From contig OX639973.1 of assembly GCA_951828385.1 (NCBI GenBank), forward strand, positions 186,001 through 250,000: DNA of 64,000 nucleotides, written 5' to 3'. How positions within the stretch are numbered: position 1 is the stretch's first letter; each line of letters opens with the position of its first letter. Made by a program: the position numbers and the translations under genes. This document shows, one piece after another, positions 2,102-46,991 of this stretch. The DNA is from an uncultured Poribacteria bacterium. Lineage in GTDB: Bacteria > Poribacteria > WGA-4E > WGA-3G. Below the pieces are notes generated by a model. That model was given only the letters and a program-made list of their open reading frames with translations. It was not told the origin of the DNA and ran no database searches.

Positions 2102-3289
2102 ATGCCAGGTCCACTGGACGGCATAAAGGTCTTAGATTTGACGCGAGTCCTCGCCGGTCCCTACGCAACAATGCTACTCGGCGACCTCGGCGCAGAGGTC
2201 ATCAAGATTGAACAACCCGGCACAGGGGACGAATCACGCAATTTCGGTCCCTTCAAAAACGCGTTTAGCCTCTACTTCATGAGTGTGAATCGCGGGAAAC
2301 GGAGCATCACGCTCAACCTTAAAACCGAACGTGGACAAGCAATATTCAAACAGTTGTTAGCACATACCGATATTGTCGTGGAGAATTTCCGACCCGGAAC
2401 GATGAAAAAATTGGGACTGGATTACGACACCTTGAAAGCCGAACACCCATCGCTGATTTACGCAGCGTGTTCCGGCTTTGGTCAGACCGGTCCTTATGCC
2501 CAACAAGGTGCTTACGACATGATTATCCAAGGCATGGGCGGTATCATCAGCATCACCGGTGAACCAGAGGGACCGCCAGTACGTGTCGGCACCTCTATCA
2601 GCGACATCACTGCAGCCCTCTTTACGACAATCGGTGTGCTTTCTGCGCTACACCACCGCAACGAAACGGGAAAGGGACAGCTTGTAGATGTTGCGATGTT
2701 AGATAGCCTTGTCGCTGTTCTGGAAAACGCTGTCGTCCGTTATTTCGCTACAGGCGAAGCACCGAAACCCCTCGGTGCGAGACATCCTGCGATTACACCG
2801 TTTGAAGCGTTCGCCTCGGCGGATGGACACGTTATCATCGCACTCGGAAACGATACCCTCTGGGCAAAATTCTGTGAACATGTCAATCGACAGGATCTCG
2901 TCTCGGATGAACGCTTCCGAACAAACGCTGATCGGACGGAAAATCATGATGAACTGTTCCCGATTCTTTCGGAGATTATGTCCAAACGGGCAACCGATGA
3001 TTGGATCGATGCACTCGGAGATATAGGTGTGCCGTGCGGTCCTATCAATGCGATGGATAAAGTGGTAAGCCATCCACAGGTACAAGCACGAGAGATGATT
3101 ACCCGTGTCGCACACCAGATTACAGGCGAAGTTGAAGTGCCAGGGGTACCGATCAAGCTGTCGGAAACACCGGGGAACGTAGACACCCCCGCCCCGAGCC
3201 TCGGTGAACACACAACCGAGGTCCTCACCGGTGTATTGAAAATGTCGCCAGACGAAGTGGCAAAGTTAAAACAAGACGGCGTTATTTGA
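2102..3289 (+). CDS. CaiB/BaiF family (class III) CoA-transferase
   Basis: A family III CoA-transferase of 395 residues, the normal length. The N-terminus PLDGIKVLDLTRVLAGPYA and LGDLGAEVIKIEQPGTGDE are hallmark blocks; VNRGKRSITLNLKTE and VVENFRPGTMKKLGLDY follow. In this family an Asp in the 'G.YD...QG..G' block carries the covalent intermediate; here it is the Asp of QGAYDMIIQGMGGI. Members move CoA between carboxylic acids (for example formate/oxalate, succinate/itaconate, carnitine), and the sequence alone does not fix the substrate. The gene lies between purC and a large hydrolase, not in a recognisable catabolic cluster. The start is supported by GGGAGAAACGACGA just before the ATG. Confidence 0.93.
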   Translation: MPGPLDGIKVLDLTRVLAGPYATMLLGDLGAEVIKIEQPGTGDESRNFGPFKNAFSLYFMSVNRGKRSITLNLKTERGQAIFKQLLAHTDIVVENFRPGTMKKLGLDYDTLKAEHPSLIYAACSGFGQTGPYAQQGAYDMIIQGMGGIISITGEPEGPPVRVGTSISDITAALFTTIGVLSALHHRNETGKGQLVDVAMLDSLVAVLENAVVRYFATGEAPKPLGARHPAITPFEAFASADGHVIIALGNDTLWAKFCEHVNRQDLVSDERFRTNADRTENHDELFPILSEIMSKRATDDWIDALGDIGVPCGPINAMDKVVSHPQVQAREMITRVAHQITGEVEVPGVPIKLSETPGNVDTPAPSLGEHTTEVLTGVLKMSPDEVAKLKQDGVI

Positions 3290-14618: not shown

Positions 14619-14884
14619 AATTTCCGTGACCTTATCTTAGCAAGAAAAGGTAATTTTTTATTTGGCAAATCCTGAAAAAAATTAAACATCTCGTATTAAC
14701 TAATGGCAAAATGCAAAATGTTCCCACAATAATATTCCATGATCCAATCAGAGCCATTCAGCAATTCTATAAAGCACGATTTCCACTCAAAAACACCTCT
14801 AATCCTAAAAATCCTTCAATCCCATAAATCCCAGTTCAGACGAATGAGCCATCAGCCAACTACTGACAACCATTCACATTTTTC
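14619..14884. other. AT-rich gap at the right edge of the island
   Basis: No gene seen. The right half carries degenerate copies of the CTGACAACTGA-type dispersed repeat (for example 'CTACTGACAACC') that is common in the gaps of this genome, then the promoter of the next gene. Confidence 0.45.
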
Positions 14885-14913
14885 TTGACTTTTCTGTTTA
14901 ACCGTGTTATCCT
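14885..14913 (+). promoter_or_regulatory. Sigma70-like promoter
   Basis: TTGACT, 17 bases, TATCCT, about 60 bases before the start of the secreted 265-residue protein. Confidence 0.5.
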
Positions 14914-14975
14914 GAACCCAATGACGAAGGTTTAATAACGAATCAACTGGAAACCGAAAATTAGGAGGCAAAGAA

Positions 14976-15773
14976 ATGAAACGGTTATTTTGTTTTGCAT
15001 CGATTCTGGTACTAATTTTCGCTGGCTACGTTCATGCTCAGGATGTCGCTATCGTCTATGATGAGGCTATTGAAAACGGCGGTGGCTTGGCTGTACCGAA
15101 CCCGGCGCAGTTAGCTGAAATGATGGTAGAGGAACTCGAAGCGAAAAAACTAACTGCCGAAATCGTGGACGCTGACGGTTTAGTGGAGTATATGAACGCG
15201 AACCCAAAGGGGATCTATATCATCACGCAGGGGAATACACCCGGCACAATATTTAAGAAAGATGGCAAGAAAGACCTTGTTTATACGTGGTTAAGGGAAG
15301 GCGGAATCGGCGGATTCATCGGTGATTACCCGTTCTACTATTATTGGGATAAAGGCGCACGTGTTACTGCTGCCGGTGCCGGACAGCAAAGTGTGTTTGG
15401 TGTCACAGTCACAAATGGCACGGTTTCCGCTGTTTCGCCGACGGATCTCGGTAAGGAATACATACCTTCACTCAAAAAATGGAGTTCAAATCGGGCATCA
15501 GGTCTCGCTGTTTTGAAGGCGAACGATTTTGAGTATGAAAGTTATGCCGACGACGGCTCAAACGCGGACCCGATCGCGTACCGGACAGATGATATGGAGG
15601 GATGGTTCATCAACTTCCATACCTCGTGTTGCGGAACAGCTATACCGCCAAATGATCAGATCGCTACGGAATACGCAGAACTCATTTCAAACCGTTTTGC
15701 AACAGCGCAAGCGGTGGATCCGAGTGGTAAAGTGAGCGTTGTCTGGGGTAAGATCAAAAAATCGCTACAGTAG
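14976..15773 (+). CDS. Secreted protein of unknown function
   Basis: A 265-residue exported protein with a clean signal peptide (MKRLFCFASILVLIFAGYVHA, cleavage after AHA-like VHA-Q) behind an AGGAGG ribosome site. The mature part starts with VAIVYDEAIENGGGLAVPNP and has alternating strands and helices (VDADGLVEYM, GIYIITQGNTPGTIF, YTWLREGGIGGFIGDYPFYYYWDKG), reminiscent of ThuA- or glutamine amidotransferase-like folds in which 'gG.i.f.Gdyp' forms a loop near the active site. I do not recognise a named family. A Cys pair (TSCCGTA) lies near the C-terminus. Confidence 0.7.
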   Translation: MKRLFCFASILVLIFAGYVHAQDVAIVYDEAIENGGGLAVPNPAQLAEMMVEELEAKKLTAEIVDADGLVEYMNANPKGIYIITQGNTPGTIFKKDGKKDLVYTWLREGGIGGFIGDYPFYYYWDKGARVTAAGAGQQSVFGVTVTNGTVSAVSPTDLGKEYIPSLKKWSSNRASGLAVLKANDFEYESYADDGSNADPIAYRTDDMEGWFINFHTSCCGTAIPPNDQIATEYAELISNRFATAQAVDPSGKVSVVWGKIKKSLQ

Positions 15774-38358: not shown

Positions 38359-39210
38359 CTATGACACCTGCGAGTCTTCACCGCCTTGCAAAGCGCGGAA
38401 GTATAACACAGTCCCGACAAGAACTATCCCCATCAGCATAAACGAGAGCGCAGACCCGAAGGGCCAATCCCGCGCCGTTTTGAATTGCCGTTCAATCACG
38501 TTACCGATATAACTTACTTTCCCACCACCGAGCAGATCCGGTGTCAAAAACGCGCCCACTGTCGGAATAAAGACCAACATCGAACCAGCAAGGATACCGG
38601 GCAGACTCAGTGGCACGGTTACGTGCCAAAACGCACGCCGCGGCGATGCGCCGAGATCATGTGCTGCTTCCAGCAATGACATATCTAATTGTTCCAGTGC
38701 TGCATAGAGTGGGAGGATCATAAACGGCAGGTAGCCATAGACGAGTCCGATCTGAACGGCGAGCGGTGTATTCAACAATTCTAACGGCCCCCAGTTAGGG
38801 AACACAGCACCTAAAAGACTGTTCAGAAGTCCTTCGGTCCGCAAAATCAGTATCCATGCATAAGTTCGGATGAGAAAGTTCGTCCAGAACGGGACAACGA
38901 CGAGCAGTAATAAGATATTCCGGTGTTTCGGTCTATAGCGTGCCAGATAGTAGGCAAACGGATAACCGAGAAGTAGACAGACCGCCGTGCAAACTAACGC
39001 CGTAGACACTGACCGCCAGAGAATACCGAGATACAAGCCATCAAACAGCCGTCCATAGTTTTCCAACGTGAAGTGCCACCGCACACCACCGTACGTCCCA
39101 CGCTCTATAAAACTATAGATAAACACCGAGACCAACGGCAGCAAAAAGAAGCAAACGAGCCAAAAAACAACTGGAAAGAGGAGCACAAAGAGATGATAAT
39201 TACGACGCAT
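38359..39210 (-). CDS. potB: Spermidine/putrescine-type ABC permease (PotB-like)
   Basis: A 283-residue inner-membrane protein with about six helices; the first (LFVLLFPVVFWLVCFFLLPLV) and the EAA loop (LEAAHDLGASPRRAFWHVTVPLSLPGILAG) are typical of PotB/PotI. The ATG lies 2 bases behind the stop of a broken restriction-helicase stub, with no room for a promoter or a normal ribosome site of its own (a GTG 6 bases upstream is the alternative). The usual potA ATPase gene that precedes potB is absent. The DNA junction here may be a deletion. Confidence 0.88.
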   Translation of the reverse strand: MRRNYHLFVLLFPVVFWLVCFFLLPLVSVFIYSFIERGTYGGVRWHFTLENYGRLFDGLYLGILWRSVSTALVCTAVCLLLGYPFAYYLARYRPKHRNILLLLVVVPFWTNFLIRTYAWILILRTEGLLNSLLGAVFPNWGPLELLNTPLAVQIGLVYGYLPFMILPLYAALEQLDMSLLEAAHDLGASPRRAFWHVTVPLSLPGILAGSMLVFIPTVGAFLTPDLLGGGKVSYIGNVIERQFKTARDWPFGSALSFMLMGIVLVGTVLYFRALQGGEDSQVS

Positions 39211-39417: not shown

Positions 39418-40584
39418 CTATTCATCTTCAATCTTCATCATTTTTTGCACGTTCTTAATCGATTTGTAGATAAACCTTTTGTCTTGATCAAATTGGTTTG
39501 CGATTTCATGGAACACTGTTGCTGTGTCAGTGTTACCATCGAACCCATGCACTACCATAAGTTCCCAGGTTTCCTTTTCAGTATCCGCAGCGTTTTTAGC
39601 GGTGTTAAACATCCGTTTGATCTGTCCCATTGAGATTGTGATTTGATGTATCGGGTAATCTTCATTTAATATCGCAATAATCTCGTCAAGTTTGGGATTT
39701 TCCCAGTTTTCAAAGGCTTTCAGAATAGTAGCCCAAATCACCGTGGTACTCAGCTGTGTCTGTCCTTGTGTCCAATGCACTTGCTCAATTCGGTGAGGTT
39801 TGCACTTATACGGACGGATTTCATGAGTATCTTTAATTTTTACATACCAGATACTGCCTTCTTCGCCTCTAAACACAGGAGCTTGACTCTCATTCAAGCC
39901 AATGAACTCCAGTCGCCTATCAAGGTCTTGCTGTTCTTGCTCGTAGTGCCACACATAGTCTTTTTCAACAGTGCCGAGCTGTTCTGCTTTCGGGATATCG
40001 CCTGCCTCAAGTTCGGTATTCAGTACGATTTGCCCCTGCATTCCGCCCAGCCCGAACAACAACACCATGTCCAGTTTGACATCCTCGTATTGGATCATGT
40101 GCGGGTTATCCGACCCATAGAGTTCAAAACTGAAACCTGTGACTTCGGGATTCATTTTAAACAATTTGGTGATCTGTGGGTATTTTCGGAGGATATGCTG
40201 CCACATCGTTATGTAGCGCCCCCGCAAGAATGGGAACAGACGCACCTTAAAAGTGATGTATTCCATCCCGTTGTTTCTGTAGCGGTACATAAAAATGTTG
40301 GTGCCATCGTATTTGCGGAAGCGATAAATCCGCTCCGCGCGCGGAAACCGGTAATTATGCCCCAATCCGAAGGGGTAAGCAATTTTCGGCGTGCCAAAGA
40401 TTTTAGGTTGATCGACCAATTCACCATTGATATTTTTTATCTTCAGGGAACCGTAGAATTTGTCTCTACTGAAACTTATCTGCCCCTCGACGTGGTTTCG
40501 AGGGTTAAACGGGTCTATCGCGCTAAATTCAGCGTAATCCGAATTTAAAACTTGCTGTCCCCTTTTTATTTTTTGTTGAGCCAT
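39418..40584 (-). CDS. RNA ligase family protein (ATP-dependent nucleotidyltransferase)
   Basis: A 388-residue protein that holds the ordered motifs of covalent nucleotidyltransferases: motif I K91-YDG-TN (KxDGxN, lysine that takes AMP), motif III FSFELYG at 151-157 followed by the family-like NPHMIQYEDV, motif IV EGSIWYVK at 242-249, and motif V PYKCKP at 258-263. The order and spacing suit the RNA_ligase family (T4 Rnl2/Rnl1-like) better than NAD-type DNA ligase. The last ~110 residues are a helical domain (QIKRMFNTAKNAADTEKETW). GGAGG stands 6 bases before the ATG. Its gene is on the strand and just behind the ATPase/PIN pair. Ligase activity and RNA substrate are inferred. Confidence 0.72.
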   Translation of the reverse strand: MAQQKIKRGQQVLNSDYAEFSAIDPFNPRNHVEGQISFSRDKFYGSLKIKNINGELVDQPKIFGTPKIAYPFGLGHNYRFPRAERIYRFRKYDGTNIFMYRYRNNGMEYITFKVRLFPFLRGRYITMWQHILRKYPQITKLFKMNPEVTGFSFELYGSDNPHMIQYEDVKLDMVLLFGLGGMQGQIVLNTELEAGDIPKAEQLGTVEKDYVWHYEQEQQDLDRRLEFIGLNESQAPVFRGEEGSIWYVKIKDTHEIRPYKCKPHRIEQVHWTQGQTQLSTTVIWATILKAFENWENPKLDEIIAILNEDYPIHQITISMGQIKRMFNTAKNAADTEKETWELMVVHGFDGNTDTATVFHEIANQFDQDKRFIYKSIKNVQKMMKIEDE

Positions 40585-40627
40585 TGCTGACCTCCAAGGG
40601 GTCCAATGGGTTGTCCATCTTCAGATT

Positions 40628-40748
40628 AAAGACAAATTCGGTTCGTAGTAGGGCAATTCATTGCCCGTCGTTTCAAAACATGTGCAAATAATTACGGACT
40701 CTGCTATAAAGACAAATTTGGTTCGTAGTAGGGCAATTCATTGCCCGT
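40628..40748. repeat. Pair of 41-bp direct repeats with a GGGCAAT hairpin
   Basis: Two 41-base units, 80 bases apart start to start, with one C/T difference; each ends in GGGCAAT TC ATTGCCC, a near-perfect hairpin. They lie between the PIN and ligase genes. Confidence 0.7.
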
Positions 40749-40778
40749 TCCTGAGCTGTGGACGCGCATTATTGCGAT

Positions 40779-41288
40779 CTACGCTTCATTCTCAGATGAA
40801 CATAGAAACTCAACCTGCACGCCTTCTTGCTCAAATGCCTTTCGGAACGGTTCCCATTTTCTATCTAATGCCTGCAAAATAGTTGCTTTTTTATCATGGT
40901 CACGCTCATAGGCGATAGCAACCGCAATAAATTTTCTATCAGCTACGTCAAAATTGCTTAATGTTTCAGTGGTTGGAAACTCGTCAAAATCCGTTTCACT
41001 GCCATCCAACGGGTTGATACACACCATTGTGCAAATCGCCGGTCTCCGCCTCAGATTCTGCAGCAACGTTTTTACAAAAAGATCACCGATTCCTTTCCGG
41101 GTCTCTAAATTAACATATCTCTTGTATTCGTTAAGAATTCGCCACCCGTCATCAACAACAGACGTTTCCTGTTGTTCGAGAATCTGTTTAATTCGTTTCT
41201 GACACTTTTCTACATCATCAGGTGATGCATGCTCTGCCTCATCGTTTGCAGTTATGATAACATTCGTATCTACGATAACAGCGTCCAT
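40779..41288 (-). CDS. PIN-domain nuclease
   Basis: A 169-residue protein starting at the ATG behind GGAGGG; the open frame goes further upstream into the ATPase gene but without support. PIN-fold acidic residues are in order: D7 and N9 in VDTNVII, E54 (NEYKRY), D114/D117 (FDVADRKF), D142 (LDRKW). PIN domains are Mg-dependent RNases of toxin-antitoxin and defence systems. The gene follows the DUF3696-type ATPase by 37 bases; the pair is likely one functional unit in which ATPase controls the nuclease. Confidence 0.78.
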   Translation of the reverse strand: MDAVIVDTNVIITANDEAEHASPDDVEKCQKRIKQILEQQETSVVDDGWRILNEYKRYVNLETRKGIGDLFVKTLLQNLRRRPAICTMVCINPLDGSETDFDEFPTTETLSNFDVADRKFIAVAIAYERDHDKKATILQALDRKWEPFRKAFEQEGVQVEFLCSSENEA

Positions 41289-41325
41289 TAACCCTCCGCT
41301 CTCTTTCGACGTTACTGCCGTACCT

Positions 41326-42654
41326 TTATCCTTTGCTTGGTGCAATAGTAGTTCCTTCTATTAATTCTGTCTTGCTTTTTTGACGTTTTCTTTGTGCTTC
41401 TGTCATTGCGAACAGATCGCCCATCTCGTCACCAAAAAAGTTTTCGGGCCAGTTCGCAATATTGCCGAACTCATCCATTTCTAACCTGTCAATTTCAGAA
41501 ACGCCTTCGTCATTACGGCAGAAATAGAGGGCAGTCTGGTCGGCAGCAATCTTTTCCTCCGCGACGCGTCGTTGCAACCGATTTAGTAGGTGTTCGCTGT
41601 GGCTCTCTATTAGAATCTGGAGGTTGCGTTCAGTGATAACCTCTATCAATAGGTCAGCCAAATCAGCTTGTGCTTTCGGATGGAGGTGAATGCCAGGTTG
41701 TTCTAAAATTAAGGTTGACCCTCTCGGTACATAGCAGCAATGCACCAACAACGGAAACAGATCGGCAACACCGTGTCCCATGTCTGCTAACGTGACTTTG
41801 GCACTGTTTGGACTCTTTTGGATGCGTACTTCGTAATTGTTATCGGATAGATTACCGATCGGGCCAAGCCAAAAAGAGTAGGCGAGATCCAACTTTTGAA
41901 GCCATTTAGATATGCGCTCTTCAAGCGAGATGCTTTCTCCGTTATGAGCGGTTGTTAATTGCCGCACGCGTGCAGAAAGGAGCGCGTCAACGGCTTCATT
42001 CCCCCACAGATCTATCTCTTTGGGGTGTGTCATCTTCCAATGATAAAACCGTTGCGGATGGACACGAGTCGGACCGATATAGTAAACATGAGAAAATATT
42101 TCTTCAAAGGCAGACGAAAATTGGGGTAGAATGTCTGTAGGACCAGTAAAATTTATAAACGGTTGTGGTGGTAAACCGTAACAGTTTTGGATATCAATCC
42201 CGCCCAAATCCCGTTTGTCCATGGAGAGTCGGCCATTTTTCCAAAGAGTTGTTGCACCGTTAGACAAACTAATATATCGGATGTGTTTGACTATTAGCGT
42301 TGACTTTTCTTCTCGGATAACAGTGTCGAAAGCAAAACGGAGTAACTGGAGGGGAATTTTAAAAAGATCAGGGGCGGAATGGGTGAGTTCGCAACTGACT
42401 CCTAAATATAATTCATTAATTGATTGATGGCTATGAATTACCTCTCGGAAATTACCAAGATTGACAAGAGAATTTTCATCGCCAAAGAAGAGAACTTCGT
42501 CGCTTCCAATAGTCTGTTTGAGCAACAGCAGCATCTGCAACAAGCTGCTTTTTCCAGCACTATTTGTCCCAAAGAAACCGGTCAGTGGAGCGAGTTTCAC
42601 TATGTCACTGTCTTGCCAAGATTTAAAATTTTTTACCCGTATATGTGTAATCAT
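41326..42654 (-). CDS. AAA family ATPase with C-terminal DUF3696
   Basis: A 442-residue ATPase of the SMC/RecF-like OLD type (COG4938). Start is the ATG 8 bases behind GGAGG: MITHIRVKNFKSWQD. Walker A GTNSAGKSS at ~29-37; the signature region GVADLFPLLVHCC; Walker B TLILEQPGIHLHPKAQADLAD; switch His in ESHSEHLLNRL. The C-terminal YFCRNDEGVSEIDRLEMDEFGNIANWPENFF fits DUF3696. Such ATPases work as sensors in phage-defence pairs and here precede a PIN nuclease. The upstream Uma2 stub reads toward it. No direct sign of DNA binding. Confidence 0.82.
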   Translation of the reverse strand: MITHIRVKNFKSWQDSDIVKLAPLTGFFGTNSAGKSSLLQMLLLLKQTIGSDEVLFFGDENSLVNLGNFREVIHSHQSINELYLGVSCELTHSAPDLFKIPLQLLRFAFDTVIREEKSTLIVKHIRYISLSNGATTLWKNGRLSMDKRDLGGIDIQNCYGLPPQPFINFTGPTDILPQFSSAFEEIFSHVYYIGPTRVHPQRFYHWKMTHPKEIDLWGNEAVDALLSARVRQLTTAHNGESISLEERISKWLQKLDLAYSFWLGPIGNLSDNNYEVRIQKSPNSAKVTLADMGHGVADLFPLLVHCCYVPRGSTLILEQPGIHLHPKAQADLADLLIEVITERNLQILIESHSEHLLNRLQRRVAEEKIAADQTALYFCRNDEGVSEIDRLEMDEFGNIANWPENFFGDEMGDLFAMTEAQRKRQKSKTELIEGTTIAPSKG

Positions 42655-42670: not shown

Positions 42671-42934
42671 TTAACTCCTATTATACGCAGTTTCACGAGA
42701 AAATTCAAGGGAATCCAAATTGCAGCCAGGGCCATTCAACTTTAAGAAATTATTGGATTTTACGTCTTTTTTCCAGGATCTGGTGTGAAAACCTTCTAAA
42801 GCTTGCAAAAGTCGGATCAGGATTTCAAGATGTAAGTCGCTGGCTGCCATAGGTTGACCGTCCGTATCAGGATAGAGATCTGCTGTGTCCGTGGGGGCGT
42901 AACGCATATTGTGTTTGTTTGTATAGGTATTCAT
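42671..42934 (-). pseudogene. Truncated Uma2-type nuclease stub
   Basis: Residues 10-49 read RYAPTDTADLYPDTDGQPMAASDLHLEILIRLLQALE, the start of Uma2 (DUF820) family PD-(D/E)XK-type proteins ('lPdsdGqp.aesd.H...i..l..aL'). The remaining frame (FHTRSWKKDVKSNNF onwards) is unrelated, so the nuclease core has been lost. A working GGAGAAC ribosome site is in front. The ATPase gene begins 16 bases behind the stop. Confidence 0.6.
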
Positions 42935-43161: not shown

Positions 43162-43425
43162 TTGGAAAAAATACGTGGATTGATTACGCTCTTGGAATCC
43201 GGCGTTGAAGACTACGATACGCAGATGAAGGTTCTACAAACCGAACGGTTGAAATATATTCGGCTCGCCATGACAGACGGGTTCGGTACGGAGGAAGGCG
43301 ACTCTAAGCAGTCGTGGCTGCTTCACCTTAAACAACTTGAAGACTCACTTACACTCAGGCGGAATACGATACGACAGGCAATCGTGGAAACCGCAGAAGA
43401 TTTTCAGAAAGAGGAAAAGGCATGA
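43162..43425 (+). CDS. Small helical protein coupled to the large secreted protein
   Basis: An 87-residue, mostly helical, charged cytosolic protein starting at TTG behind AAAGGAGACACACA. Heptads run through LLESGVEDYDTQMKVLQTER and LHLKQLEDSLTLRRNTIRQA. The stop overlaps the ATG of the next gene (ATGA), so synthesis is coupled. No family recognised. Confidence 0.65.
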   Translation: MEKIRGLITLLESGVEDYDTQMKVLQTERLKYIRLAMTDGFGTEEGDSKQSWLLHLKQLEDSLTLRRNTIRQAIVETAEDFQKEEKA

Positions 43426-46400
43426 TACCGAGATTCACGTCTGCTAACATAGGAAAATGCTTGATATGCGTGCTGTTGTTGGTATGCGGCTTTATCGTCT
43501 CAACAGCAGACGCGCAAGAGATAAACAGTGCCCAGGTCATTGAAGCAGCGATCCGACATCAGAATTTAGGGTTGGCATATCTTGAAGAGTCGCAGCCTTC
43601 AAAAGCAGTCGAGGCATTTACTGCACTGATTGAACTGCTTCCGAATGAAGCGATCGGTTACGGTAACCTCGCTGTCGCACACTTGCGCTTGCAGCAGGCA
43701 GATGCTGCCGAGGCATCGGTAAAGCGCGGCATCGCTGTCGCACCGATGGATAGCCAGTTACACTTTATTTTATCCGAGGTCTATCAGTTGCAGCAGGAAG
43801 GCGGTTTAGCAGTGGCGGCGATGAAGGAAGCCGTACGTTTAGCACCCGACGAACTGGAGTTTCGCTACAAACTGGTGCGCCACTATCTTGGACAACGAAA
43901 CGACCCAGAAGCACAGCAGGAGGCTGTTCGACATCTTCAGGAACTTCATGCCCGATCACCTGTGAATATCGTTGTACTGATGAAGTTGACACTCGGTTTG
44001 TTAGCGCAAAAGCAACTTGAAGCCGCTGCAAATCTCTGTCAGGACCTAATGCTCCTTTTAGGCGATACCGATGCAGAAAAACTCGCATACCTCACACAAG
44101 GGATAGATGCAATAGAGCAGAAAGATTTAAAACTCGCCATCCGAAATATCCGAATTTTTGAAAACTTACACCGGGCAAGTCCCCGTTATCAGCAAGGCAT
44201 CGGTGAATTGGTGACCGACATCCTTGGGCATCCGATAGAGACGTTCAGCCCAGGGTTTCGCGCACGAATCATCGCTAAACAGACGCTACCGATTGATGTG
44301 GAATTTGTGGACGTTACCCAACAACTTGGACTTAGCAATGTAAAGGCACTGTTACCCTTAAGAATACCCACTGTTGTATCTGTTGTGAATTCCGATAACG
44401 ATGGAAAGCCTGATCTGTATATAAGCGGTTCTGATTTTGTAGGGTTGTACCAGGATACAGAGCGAAAAGTTCAATTTGTGTTGTATCGGAATATGGGGGA
44501 ACAGTTTGATGCAGTTACAATCCTTGAGCAAGAACTTGCAGAGGAACTAAATTTTCACGTGGCTGTTGCAGATGTAAATAAAGATGGGATACAGGATTTT
44601 CTATTGGAAGCTGCCAAGGGAATAGTATATTTCTGGGAAACTACAGAAGATGATGAAGTCGCAGTTCCCGTCGTCTTATATGAACAGCCGGTAACAGAGA
44701 TAGGAGTCCTCCATCCTGTCGATTATGACCATGACGGCGATTTAGACCTCTTTACAACCGGTGCCACGATGTATCGAAATAATAGCAGTGATCAGAATAA
44801 AGGTAATGAGACGTTCACTGATGTCACAGAACAAACCTTTGTAAAAACAACTGCGCCACAATCCGCTCCTGCCGAAGCATTCTCCGCTGATTTTGATGAC
44901 GATGGCGATATAGATATTTTTGTTACACATCAGGAAACAGGATGCGCGCTTTACGATAACCTCCGCCAAGGCAAACTCCGCGCGGTTTCCGACGAAACAG
45001 ATATTCCGCAAGATATGCATTACACTGCAGCTGCCATCGGCGATTATGATAACGACGGAGACATTGATATTTTTTTATCGACAGCAGATCGGATCCACCT
45101 CTACTTCAATAGAGGAGATGGAAGTTTTGTAGACGATCCGCGCTTAGAGGCGGGTGTGCGTGATCTGTCCCCCGAGCTATTGAAAAACATAGATTACGAC
45201 AACGATGGGTTTGTTGACCTCTGGGTGAGTGGCAAAGATGGGATGTTTCTGTTCCGAAACGACGGAACCGGACACTTTGCCGAGCCGTATCCGCTCATAG
45301 AAACCGTCACACCAACGGAAGGTACAATCCTCCACAACGCGACCGCTGGAGCAGTCGGAGATTACGACAACGACGGCGATCTCGACCTCTTTTTCATCAA
45401 CGGCAAAGGAGAACTCCGCGCATTGCAAAACAACGGTGGGAATCAAAATAACTGGATACAGGTCCGATTAGAAGGTTCCGGAGATAATAAGGTGAATAGA
45501 GACGGTATCGGCTCGAAATTGGAGGTGAAAGTCGGTGATCTGTATCAACTGCAGTATGTATCCGAACAAGTCTCCCATTTCGGGTTAGGTGCGTTTGACG
45601 CTGCAGATGTCGTGCGTGTCGTCTGGACAAACGGCGTACCGCAGAATGTAATTCAACCACAAGCGAGACAGCGGATTCTGGAGAAGCAGATACTGAAAGG
45701 TTCCTGTCCGTTTCTATACGTCTACGATGGTGAACAGTATCAATTCGTTACCGATCTGCTCTGGCGCGCGCCTTTGGGACTTGTCACTTCAATGGGGTTT
45801 GTCGCACCCGATGAAACAAAGGATTTCGTGAAAATTTCGGGCACGCAAATACAACCGAAATCTGGTAAATATTCCATTCAGATAACAGAAGAGTTATGGG
45901 AAACCGCCTATTTTGACGAAGTTAAACTGATAGCCGTTGATCACCCAACCGGTACTGACATTTTCGTAAACGAACAGTACATACCGCCACCTTTCGCAGA
46001 ATTCAAGGTTTACGGTGTCAAAGAGAAGCTGCACCCGAAATCTGCGGTTAACCATCGCGGTGAAGATGTGTCTGATGCCTTGAAAATGTTTGATTACCAC
46101 TACGCCGTTGAGCACAAACCCGGTCCTTATCAAGGCGTTGTTGAACCGCACGCAATAGTTCTTGACCTCGGTGATGCCCCCAATGACGCACCTGTGACGC
46201 TATTTCTCAGTGGGTGGATCTTCCCAACGGATACCAGCATCAACGTTGCCTTGTTCCAAAATCCCGAAATTAATCCCCGTTTCCCATCGGTTGCTGTGAA
46301 GGACGCAACCGGAGAATGGAAAACTGTGATTGATATGATTGGGCTGCCAGCGGGTAAAAACAAGACGATTACCGTGGATCTAACGGGCAAATTTCTGTCG

Positions 46401-46991
46401 GATGACCGACACGTTCGGATTGAGACCGATATGCAAATATACTGGGACGCAGCATTTTACACTGTTGGCGCACAAGACGTACCGATAGAGTTAACAACGT
46501 TGAATCCGGATAGCGCGGATTTGCACTACCGTGGCTTCTCCGAAATGTATCGTCCGAACCCGCACGCACCGCACCTCTTTGATTACCAAAAGGTAACAAC
46601 AGATGCACAGTGGCGCGATCTCGCAGGGTATTACACCCGCTACGGCGATGTCAACCCCTTACTACAGGAGGTTGACGATATGTACGTTATCCTCAATGCC
46701 GGTGACGAAATCACAGTAGAATTTGATGCCGCACGCCTGCCTGCCTTGAAACCCGGATGGGTGCGAGATTTTATTCTCTATAGCGACGGGTGGGATAAAG
46801 ACGGCGACATCAACACCCTCACATCACAGACAGTTGAACCGCTTCCGTTTCACGGGATGTCTGCTTACCCCTATCCAGACACTGAACATTATCCAAATGA
46901 CGCAGCGCATCGACGGTATCGGCTTGAATACAACACACGGCGCGTAGAACACCGTTTACCTCCATTACGAAGAAAAAATAAAAAACCCTGA
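43422..46991 (+). CDS. Large secreted TPR / FG-GAP (VCBS) / ASPIC-UnbV protein
   Basis: A 1189-residue exported protein. Order: signal peptide (CLICVLLLVCGFIVSTADA); TPR-type helices ~35-290 (LEESQPSKAVEAFTALIELLPN and later units); FG-GAP/VCBS propeller ~295-670 with many Ca-binding DxDxDG loops (DYDHDGDLDLF, DFDDDGDIDIF, DYDNDGDIDIF, DYDNDGDLDLF); an ASPIC/UnbV segment (GIGSKLEVKVG, VVRVVWTNGVPQ) ~680-745; then a ~440-residue C-terminal region with a beta-rich 'CPFLYVYDGEQYQFVTD' start that is unrecognised. Such proteins occur in Acidobacteria, Planctomycetes and Poribacteria, likely at the cell surface. Function not known. Confidence 0.9.
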   Translation: MIPRFTSANIGKCLICVLLLVCGFIVSTADAQEINSAQVIEAAIRHQNLGLAYLEESQPSKAVEAFTALIELLPNEAIGYGNLAVAHLRLQQADAAEASVKRGIAVAPMDSQLHFILSEVYQLQQEGGLAVAAMKEAVRLAPDELEFRYKLVRHYLGQRNDPEAQQEAVRHLQELHARSPVNIVVLMKLTLGLLAQKQLEAAANLCQDLMLLLGDTDAEKLAYLTQGIDAIEQKDLKLAIRNIRIFENLHRASPRYQQGIGELVTDILGHPIETFSPGFRARIIAKQTLPIDVEFVDVTQQLGLSNVKALLPLRIPTVVSVVNSDNDGKPDLYISGSDFVGLYQDTERKVQFVLYRNMGEQFDAVTILEQELAEELNFHVAVADVNKDGIQDFLLEAAKGIVYFWETTEDDEVAVPVVLYEQPVTEIGVLHPVDYDHDGDLDLFTTGATMYRNNSSDQNKGNETFTDVTEQTFVKTTAPQSAPAEAFSADFDDDGDIDIFVTHQETGCALYDNLRQGKLRAVSDETDIPQDMHYTAAAIGDYDNDGDIDIFLSTADRIHLYFNRGDGSFVDDPRLEAGVRDLSPELLKNIDYDNDGFVDLWVSGKDGMFLFRNDGTGHFAEPYPLIETVTPTEGTILHNATAGAVGDYDNDGDLDLFFINGKGELRALQNNGGNQNNWIQVRLEGSGDNKVNRDGIGSKLEVKVGDLYQLQYVSEQVSHFGLGAFDAADVVRVVWTNGVPQNVIQPQARQRILEKQILKGSCPFLYVYDGEQYQFVTDLLWRAPLGLVTSMGFVAPDETKDFVKISGTQIQPKSGKYSIQITEELWETAYFDEVKLIAVDHPTGTDIFVNEQYIPPPFAEFKVYGVKEKLHPKSAVNHRGEDVSDALKMFDYHYAVEHKPGPYQGVVEPHAIVLDLGDAPNDAPVTLFLSGWIFPTDTSINVALFQNPEINPRFPSVAVKDATGEWKTVIDMIGLPAGKNKTITVDLTGKFLSDDRHVRIETDMQIYWDAAFYTVGAQDVPIELTTLNPDSADLHYRGFSEMYRPNPHAPHLFDYQKVTTDAQWRDLAGYYTRYGDVNPLLQEVDDMYVILNAGDEITVEFDAARLPALKPGWVRDFILYSDGWDKDGDINTLTSQTVEPLPFHGMSAYPYPDTEHYPNDAAHRRYRLEYNTRRVEHRLPPLRRKNKKP

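Follow-up and report, generated by a model that had tools for sequence, protein, structure and literature searches.

The window analysed here is a stretch of 64,000 nucleotides (positions 186,001 to 250,000 of contig OX639973.1, assembly GCA_951828385.1) from an uncultured Poribacteria bacterium, whose genome is a single contig of 6.66 Mb and whose relatives are named Candidatus Poribacteria. Three genes on the minus strand, together spanning positions 39418-42654, encode an ATPase, a PIN-domain nuclease and a protein of 388 residues, and the last of these is shown by its active-site residues and its modelled fold to be an ATP-dependent RNA ligase. The genes lie in a chromosomal slot in which ATPase-PIN pairs are exchanged, and within this slot the ligase is linked to a single subfamily of PIN nucleases, here called PIN-A. 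The three genes are:

41326..42654, minus strand: ATPase of 442 amino acids (AAA_15/AAA_21 and DUF3696; PADLOC HEC-03B), presumed sensor or regulator
40779..41288, minus strand: PIN-domain nuclease of 169 amino acids (PADLOC HEC-03A; subfamily PIN-A), presumed effector
39418..40584, minus strand: predicted ATP-dependent RNA ligase of 388 amino acids, Rnl1-like and of an unnamed family, from its motifs, family and fold

The length of the PIN protein is counted from an ATG; the listed open reading frame (ORF) opens at a TTG further upstream. In the ligase gene a GGAGG is located six bases 5' of the ATG.

The ATPase carries a Walker A motif (GTNSAGKS, residues 29-36) and a Walker B motif (LILEQP, residues 315-320), and matches the Pfam families AAA_15 (3.2e-23) and DUF3696 (1.1e-12) and the PADLOC model HEC-03B (2.3e-106). 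The nuclease matches HEC-03A (1e-27) over residues 3-164, and its match to Pfam PIN_3 is weak (8e-4). Its four acidic residues, D7, E54, D117 and D142 counted from the ATG, are invariant across 29 PIN proteins of the slot and have the pattern of a PIN ribonuclease active site. Pfam, PADLOC and this invariance thus bear out the first-pass annotation, made from the letters of the window, which had described three genes on one strand, an ATPase with Walker A and B motifs and a PIN protein with four acidic positions.

The PIN and ATPase genes are adjacent and constitute a HEC-03 pair, a candidate of PADLOC-DB composed of HEC-03A (PIN) and HEC-03B (ATPase), with which the locus shares both genes, their adjacency, their order and the location in a defence slot; HEC-03 is a candidate of two genes, whereas at the present site an RNA ligase comes with one of the PIN subfamilies. 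No paper describing the mechanism of HEC-03 was found in the literature searched. A second system of similar type is PARIS, composed of the ATPase AriA and the Toprim nuclease AriB, which cleaves tRNA (PMC12409363). In both cases an ATPase of AAA_15/AAA_21 type accompanies a nuclease, and AriA models match the window ATPase (1.4e-24). The effector of PARIS is however a Toprim nuclease, whereas that of the window unit, as read from its genes, would be a PIN nuclease to which an RNA ligase is added.

Searched alone against Pfam, PADLOC, PHROGs, NCBIfam and the sequences of the PDB, the 388-residue protein gives nothing relevant; its match to Pfam Lipid_DES was rejected as a chance match of 17 residues. 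Relatives are found at the same locus in the genus, on another Poribacteria chromosome (G066), on a distant one (G053), on contig OY282445.1 and at 24 viral loci of IMG/VR. In the alignment of 27 members the residues K91-x-D93-G94 (motif I), K113, R115, E154 and G157 in FELYG (motif III), E242-G243 (motif IV) and K260/K262 (motif V) are invariant and stand in the order of ATP-dependent RNA ligases. In fact, the nucleotidyltransferase motifs I, III, IV and V that had been read in the window protein alone recur without change in 27 of 27 members.

The family matches the sequence profiles of ligases weakly. When members are scanned singly, 14 of the 27 match Pfam RNA_ligase (PF09414; best E 3.1e-5), with scores, where seen singly (L012, L188, L195, L210), of 14-21 bits against a curated cut-off of 27; two of the 27 match RNA_lig_T4_1 (PF09511), the better of them with E 5.5e-6 and 26.8 bits, below the cut-off of 28.3. 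The window ligase itself matches neither PF09414 nor PF09511, and an hhalign comparison with T4 RnlA alone was not significant. Since the profiles of Pfam RNA_ligase and of the Rnl1 family proper do not recognise the sequence, the family is described as Rnl1-like by fold, without a name, and is filed under neither of them.

The fold comes from an AlphaFold model built on the 27-member alignment, with a mean predicted local distance difference test score (pLDDT) of 88.6 and a predicted template modelling score (pTM) of 0.86; an earlier model from 10 sequences (pLDDT 50) was not used. A nucleotidyltransferase core (about residues 20-272) is followed by a C-terminal helical domain (about 280-387). 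The best PDB matches found by Foldseek are T4 RNA ligase 1 (2c5u, E 4.7e-10), archaeal RNA ligases and fungal tRNA ligase, and VIA-align gives Z values of 11-17 for RNA ligases and at most 10 for DNA ligases. The structural comparison that had been suggested along with the first reading has thus returned the nucleotidyltransferase fold of RNA ligases. Because of the 24 viral homologues and the fold match at a Foldseek E of 5e-10, the identification goes beyond a chance resemblance. From its conserved residues, the protein would carry out ATP-dependent sealing of RNA with 5'-phosphate and 3'-OH ends. Whatever reading of the defence locus holds, a function is hereby assigned to a previously unannotated protein family.

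The neighbourhood of the three genes was surveyed in 38 genomes of one genus by mapping the genes between two bordering genes, which in the window are:

38359..39201, minus strand: ABC transporter permease (permB), found here in 37 of the 38 genomes
43422..46991, plus strand: TPR / FG-GAP repeat protein, the other border, from the ORF calls and the slot map

PIN-A was defined as the PINs at least 83% identical to that of the window. The intact trio is present in 3 of the 38 genomes (the window genome G000, G018 and G011), and a fourth (G014) has a PIN-A pair at a contig that ends just past the PIN. An intact ligase without an intact pair is found in seven (G025, G013, G035, G008, G060, G031 and G005; that of G031 is counted as intact though split over two contig ends), and a broken ligase without an intact pair in four (G019, G007, G004 and G022). 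Other ATPase-PIN pairs without ligase occupy 18 slots, the PIN of G034 being a fragment; three slots hold neither ligase nor pair and two are unreadable. In several genomes the pairs are flanked by a type III-like methylase on one side and, downstream, by a large gene weakly matching type III restriction enzymes; for example, the order in G018 is methylase (Mod), ATPase, PIN, ligase, restriction gene (Res). The locus is therefore a chromosomal defence slot with exchangeable ATPase-PIN pairs, and a defence hotspot is mapped in Poribacteria. Protection against phages by the HEC-03-type pair at this site is suggested by its location among restriction-modification genes.

Within the slot, the ligase follows the nuclease. 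A ligase, whole or as a relic, accompanies intact or relic PIN-A in 8 of 8 alleles, and none of the 18 slots that hold other PINs has one (Fisher p 6e-7); with the six clearest PIN-A alleles the same arithmetic gives p about 7e-6, both values being optimistic because the species are related. On the tree of the flanking gene the ligase alleles are scattered, often beside ligase-free sister species (G013/G015, G035/G021, G008/G001); the slot therefore turns over, and the association of PIN-A and ligase survives the turnover. A single clade (support 99) holds the PIN-A proteins of the trio alleles, whereas the ATPases of the same alleles are not one clade (approximately unbiased test, p 3e-12). 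A plain case is G018: its ATPase shares 92% identity with that of G003, but for the PIN of G003, a slot without ligase, identity falls to 52%. Sensors have thus been exchanged at the ATPase-PIN junction and nuclease and ligase have stayed together; no exchange between PIN and ligase was seen in the slot alleles. This linkage is the strongest evidence for a functional pair, and because it joins nuclease to ligase rather than ATPase to nuclease, it favours a partnership of cutting and sealing.

Several alleles retain traces of the genes they have lost. G060 and G031 have the beginning of the ATPase fused to the last part of the PIN, with the ligase behind; G035 has a similar internal deletion. 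G008 retains the 3' part of the PIN, G022 its tail, and in G007 the leader of the ATPase is fused to the start of the ligase. For several ligase-only alleles these relics make the trio the older state. The stretch upstream of the ATPase, where a candidate promoter lies, is retained in the deletion alleles G060, G031, G035 and G007, all of which keep ligase sequence, and deletions that spare it would fit a single transcription unit. The pairwise ratio of nonsynonymous to synonymous substitution rates (dN/dS) of the ligase is 0.09-0.155, a strong constraint with or without the pair, so the ligase is useful also without PIN-A. In G007 (L143 / L031) an in-frame deletion has left of the ligase a frame of 160 amino acids, in which residues 4-85 are joined to 314-388, right behind the ATPase leader.

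Beyond the slot the ligases are seen mainly in large viral contigs, and the first-pass annotation had missed that they belong essentially to phages. Contig OY282445.1 (G065:C1, 143,886 bp, loci L181-L186), binned with a Poribacteria metagenome-assembled genome and deposited as a chromosome of it, is a phage genome, probably that of a Poribacteria phage: PHROGs identify in it the genes for the large terminase subunit, the major head protein, portal and endolysin. The Pfam terminase model PF03237 matched nothing in G065, G066, G071 or the record behind L028. The phage encodes two RNA ligases, the second of which is detectable as Pfam RNA_ligase, and it also carries DnaE, FolE, RecJ and a DnaK-like protein. 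No relatives were found when annotated phage genomes and plasmids were searched with the ligase by tblastn, nor when the viral scan used close ligase sequences; with divergent members as queries a viral scan found the 24 IMG/VR loci. When the ligases are placed on a tree, those of the slot group with the copies of G066 and of the phage in a single clade (100/100), surrounded by viral sequences; this suggests a transfer from phage to host, the root of the tree not being inferred.

Many contigs with the ligase also bear tRNA genes. Of 21 ligase-bearing records, 20 of which are viral contigs, tRNA genes pass the cut-off in 15, and in some of the records the ligase and a tRNA gene are a few hundred bases apart or closer. 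At locus L188 a CCA-adding enzyme (PolyA_pol 8e-35) is next after the ligase and is followed by a tRNA cluster. An intein that carries a LAGLIDADG endonuclease splits one viral ligase (L208:7959-10157, IMGVR_UViG_3300018018_000001); the insertion is inside motif V (YK|C...HN|CKP), in the active site.

Defences in which the host cuts RNA are commonly thought of as irreversible, and resealing as a countermeasure of the phage. The reading that we favour, tentatively and at slightly less than an even chance, is that the three genes are one phage-defence unit at an exchange slot, whose ligase reseals RNA cut by its own PIN, and that the phage homologues act in counter-defence. Given the HEC-03 match, and on the model of PARIS and other ATPase-nuclease systems, the ATPase would hold the PIN nuclease and trigger it on sensing infection. 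The activated PIN would cut host RNA, most likely tRNA, and translation would stall. The ligase, of a phage-derived family, would then reseal the ends made by PIN-A, which would make self-damage less leaky and recovery possible, and phages with the same ligase family would use it as T4 uses Rnl1 against PrrC. Here the defence identity is supported by the HEC-03A and HEC-03B matches and from the pairs placed between methylase and restriction gene, and tRNA is proposed as the substrate because of the tRNA genes in the 15 records and the CCA-adding enzyme with its tRNA cluster at L188. The data suggest, in this case, a self-mending defence unit in sponge-dwelling Poribacteria.

The wider proposal is a self-healing module of abortive infection, in which the alarm is reversible, the sensor ATPase replaceable and the nuclease-ligase a fixed unit, and in which large phages carry the same ligase family as counter-defence; in this full form we hold it to be rather unlikely. 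If true, the sealing enzyme would be part of the defence locus itself and bound to one subfamily of nuclease while the sensor is swapped, and the reversibility of tRNA-targeting immunity would become directly testable. Moreover, its likely opponent would be named, a viral RNA ligase family without annotated function in the libraries searched.

A number of points weigh against the cut-and-seal unit. Metal-dependent PIN cleavage is expected to leave 5'-phosphate and 3'-OH ends. Direct sealing requires such ends (PMC7824862), and for the RNA targets of VapC 5'-OH ends are described (PMC6459853); it is not certain that the ends made by the PIN suit the ligase. The ORFs of the window locus include no recognisable end-healing kinase. 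The linkage may partly reflect position, PIN and ligase being adjacent, and the lack of any PIN-A pair without ligase, which would be expected if the ligase were the antitoxin of the nuclease, is not significant, the numbers being too small and G014 being cut by the contig end. In seven slots an intact and constrained ligase is present without the pair and does not depend on it, so that the ligase may work alone, with an independent job. The enrichment of tRNA genes near viral ligases is weak and no more than suggestive: of four distances, the nominal p, among the matches listed, is 0.0096 at 6 kb and 0.05-0.09 at 1-3 kb. Finally, the trio is known here only from one Poribacteria genus. Of the cut-and-seal defence unit first proposed, what stands is a linkage specifically between nuclease and ligase, and what weakens it is a ligase that often outlives the pair under strong constraint; likewise, the recurrence that had been asked of the neighbourhood was found, intact in three species and as relics in several more, but within that one genus.

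These points give most room to a captured phage RNA-repair gene, a serious rival since the family is of phages, and one that we regard as possible, though on balance doubtful. The ligase would be independent cargo mending RNA cut by other attackers, such as other nucleases of the cell or toxins of competitors, and its adjacency to PIN-A would be hitchhiking. Such an origin is in line with a family found almost only in viral contigs, with slot ligases that nest with the ligase of a 144-kb phage, with the constraint in ligase-only slots (dN/dS about 0.1) and with the other bacterial copies, G066 and G053, which adjoin other genes. It does not readily account for the strict tie to one PIN subfamily despite turnover of alleles and swapping of ATPases, nor for the derivation of most ligase-only alleles from trios, as read from their relics.

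The ligase could instead be a decoy that baits phage inhibitors, or the ATPase could monitor RNA-ligase activity or sealed RNA, with interference freeing the nuclease. Phages carry homologous ligases which a host copy in a defence unit could mimic, but all catalytic residues are kept, needless for a decoy, and the ATPase is exchanged between alleles and so is not tightly tied to the ligase; we consider this highly improbable. Equally hard to sustain is that the three genes are chance neighbours, functionally unrelated: a general insertion slot can bring unrelated genes side by side, and a gap of 194 nucleotides with two inserted repeats separates PIN and ligase, but three species have the complete trio, further species have relics of it, and no other PIN subfamily has a ligase beside it. 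The least probable reading is that the nucleotidyltransferase acts on something else, joining DNA ends or transferring nucleotides to protein or to the 5' ends of RNA. DNA ligases and capping enzymes have the same core fold but come further down the match lists; RNA ligases clearly outrank the DNA ligases (Z 11-17 against at most 10), and Pfam RNA_ligase and RNA_lig_T4_1 models match relatives.

Among known systems, one of the closest parallels to the proposed unit is T4, which uses Pnk and Rnl1 against host PrrC (PMC12409363). T4 RnlA shares with the window ligase the catalytic motifs, is its best structural match, and acts in RNA repair in a phage-host conflict over cut tRNA; it is however a phage counter-defence used with a polynucleotide kinase, whereas the window ligase is a host gene beside a nuclease, with no kinase recognised nearby and no significant sequence similarity. 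Host-encoded RNA ligation against ribotoxins is also known from the operons Pnkp-Hen1, Pnkp1-Rnl-Hen1 (PMC4411300) and RtcB2-PrfH (PMC9223846), but these are repair modules without a nuclease of their own, whereas the window ligase shares its locus with one; reading the ORFs of the window locus by eye, we recognised neither Pnkp nor Hen1 beside it. RtcB, an unrelated RNA ligase, is encoded elsewhere in the window genome. The Rnl1 and Rnl2 enzymes of jumbo phages are likewise ATP-dependent RNA ligases of large, tRNA-rich phages, and these ligases and tRNAs have been proposed as responses to host attacks on tRNA (PMC7824862); the window family differs in matching Pfam ligase models weakly and in having bacterial members in defence slots. 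Host RNA-repair modules and ATPase-nuclease defences are thus each known separately. The literature searched, whose coverage did not include the key review of the subject by Burroughs and Aravind (2016), yielded no account of a unit that combines a host ATPase, a PIN nuclease and an ATP-dependent RNA ligase, so that toxin-plus-ligase operons may have been described before.

The remaining features of the locus are the following:

40585..40778, no strand: PIN-ligase spacer, 194 nucleotides, with two copies of a dispersed 42-nucleotide repeat
40627-40668 and 40707-40748: the two repeat copies in the spacer, with the palindrome GGGCAATTCATTGCCC
42680..42708, minus strand: candidate promoter, sigma-70-like (TTGAAT-17-TATAAT), by consensus match only, ending 26 nucleotides before the ATPase start

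The 27-nucleotide core of the repeat has 11 exact copies genome-wide, which marks it as a dispersed element. A minus-strand terminator was sought in the spacer and none was found; a structured or regulatory RNA there has no support, the predicted fold being ordinary (z -0.7).

The two bacterial ligase copies outside the slot both lack the ATPase-PIN pair of the trio, though they too have genes of defence type nearby. That of G053 is beside a YaeQ-like protein, and that of G066 is near an Eco57I-like methylase and a Dsr1-like protein. The Dsr1-like protein of G066 (L187:103-2694; PADLOC 5e-224, without the first ~370 positions of the model) is followed by a PIN-domain protein at 2707-3210, and the locus is possibly a Dsr1 variant in which a separate PIN effector replaces the N-terminal effector part. 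On both sides of the G066 ligase are small proteins made of repeats of about 65 residues (MNIREMTDxxVYELGLExLLDKLG...GDYTAERHKW; L178:12952-13419, 14649-15041 and 15092-15481), the two of which that were searched had no Pfam match. In the slot itself, tandem ATPase-PIN pairs, two or three per slot, are present in G029, G010, G003, G016, G006, G027 and G032 (L123, L126, L138, L142, L144, L137 and L157), and most of these slots adjoin type III-like methylase and restriction genes. Just upstream of the slot in G032 (L157:1478-2996), a TGT-like protein (PADLOC TGT 1e-53) stands beside a QueC-like protein, and the two possibly belong to a cluster for deazaguanine modification of DNA.

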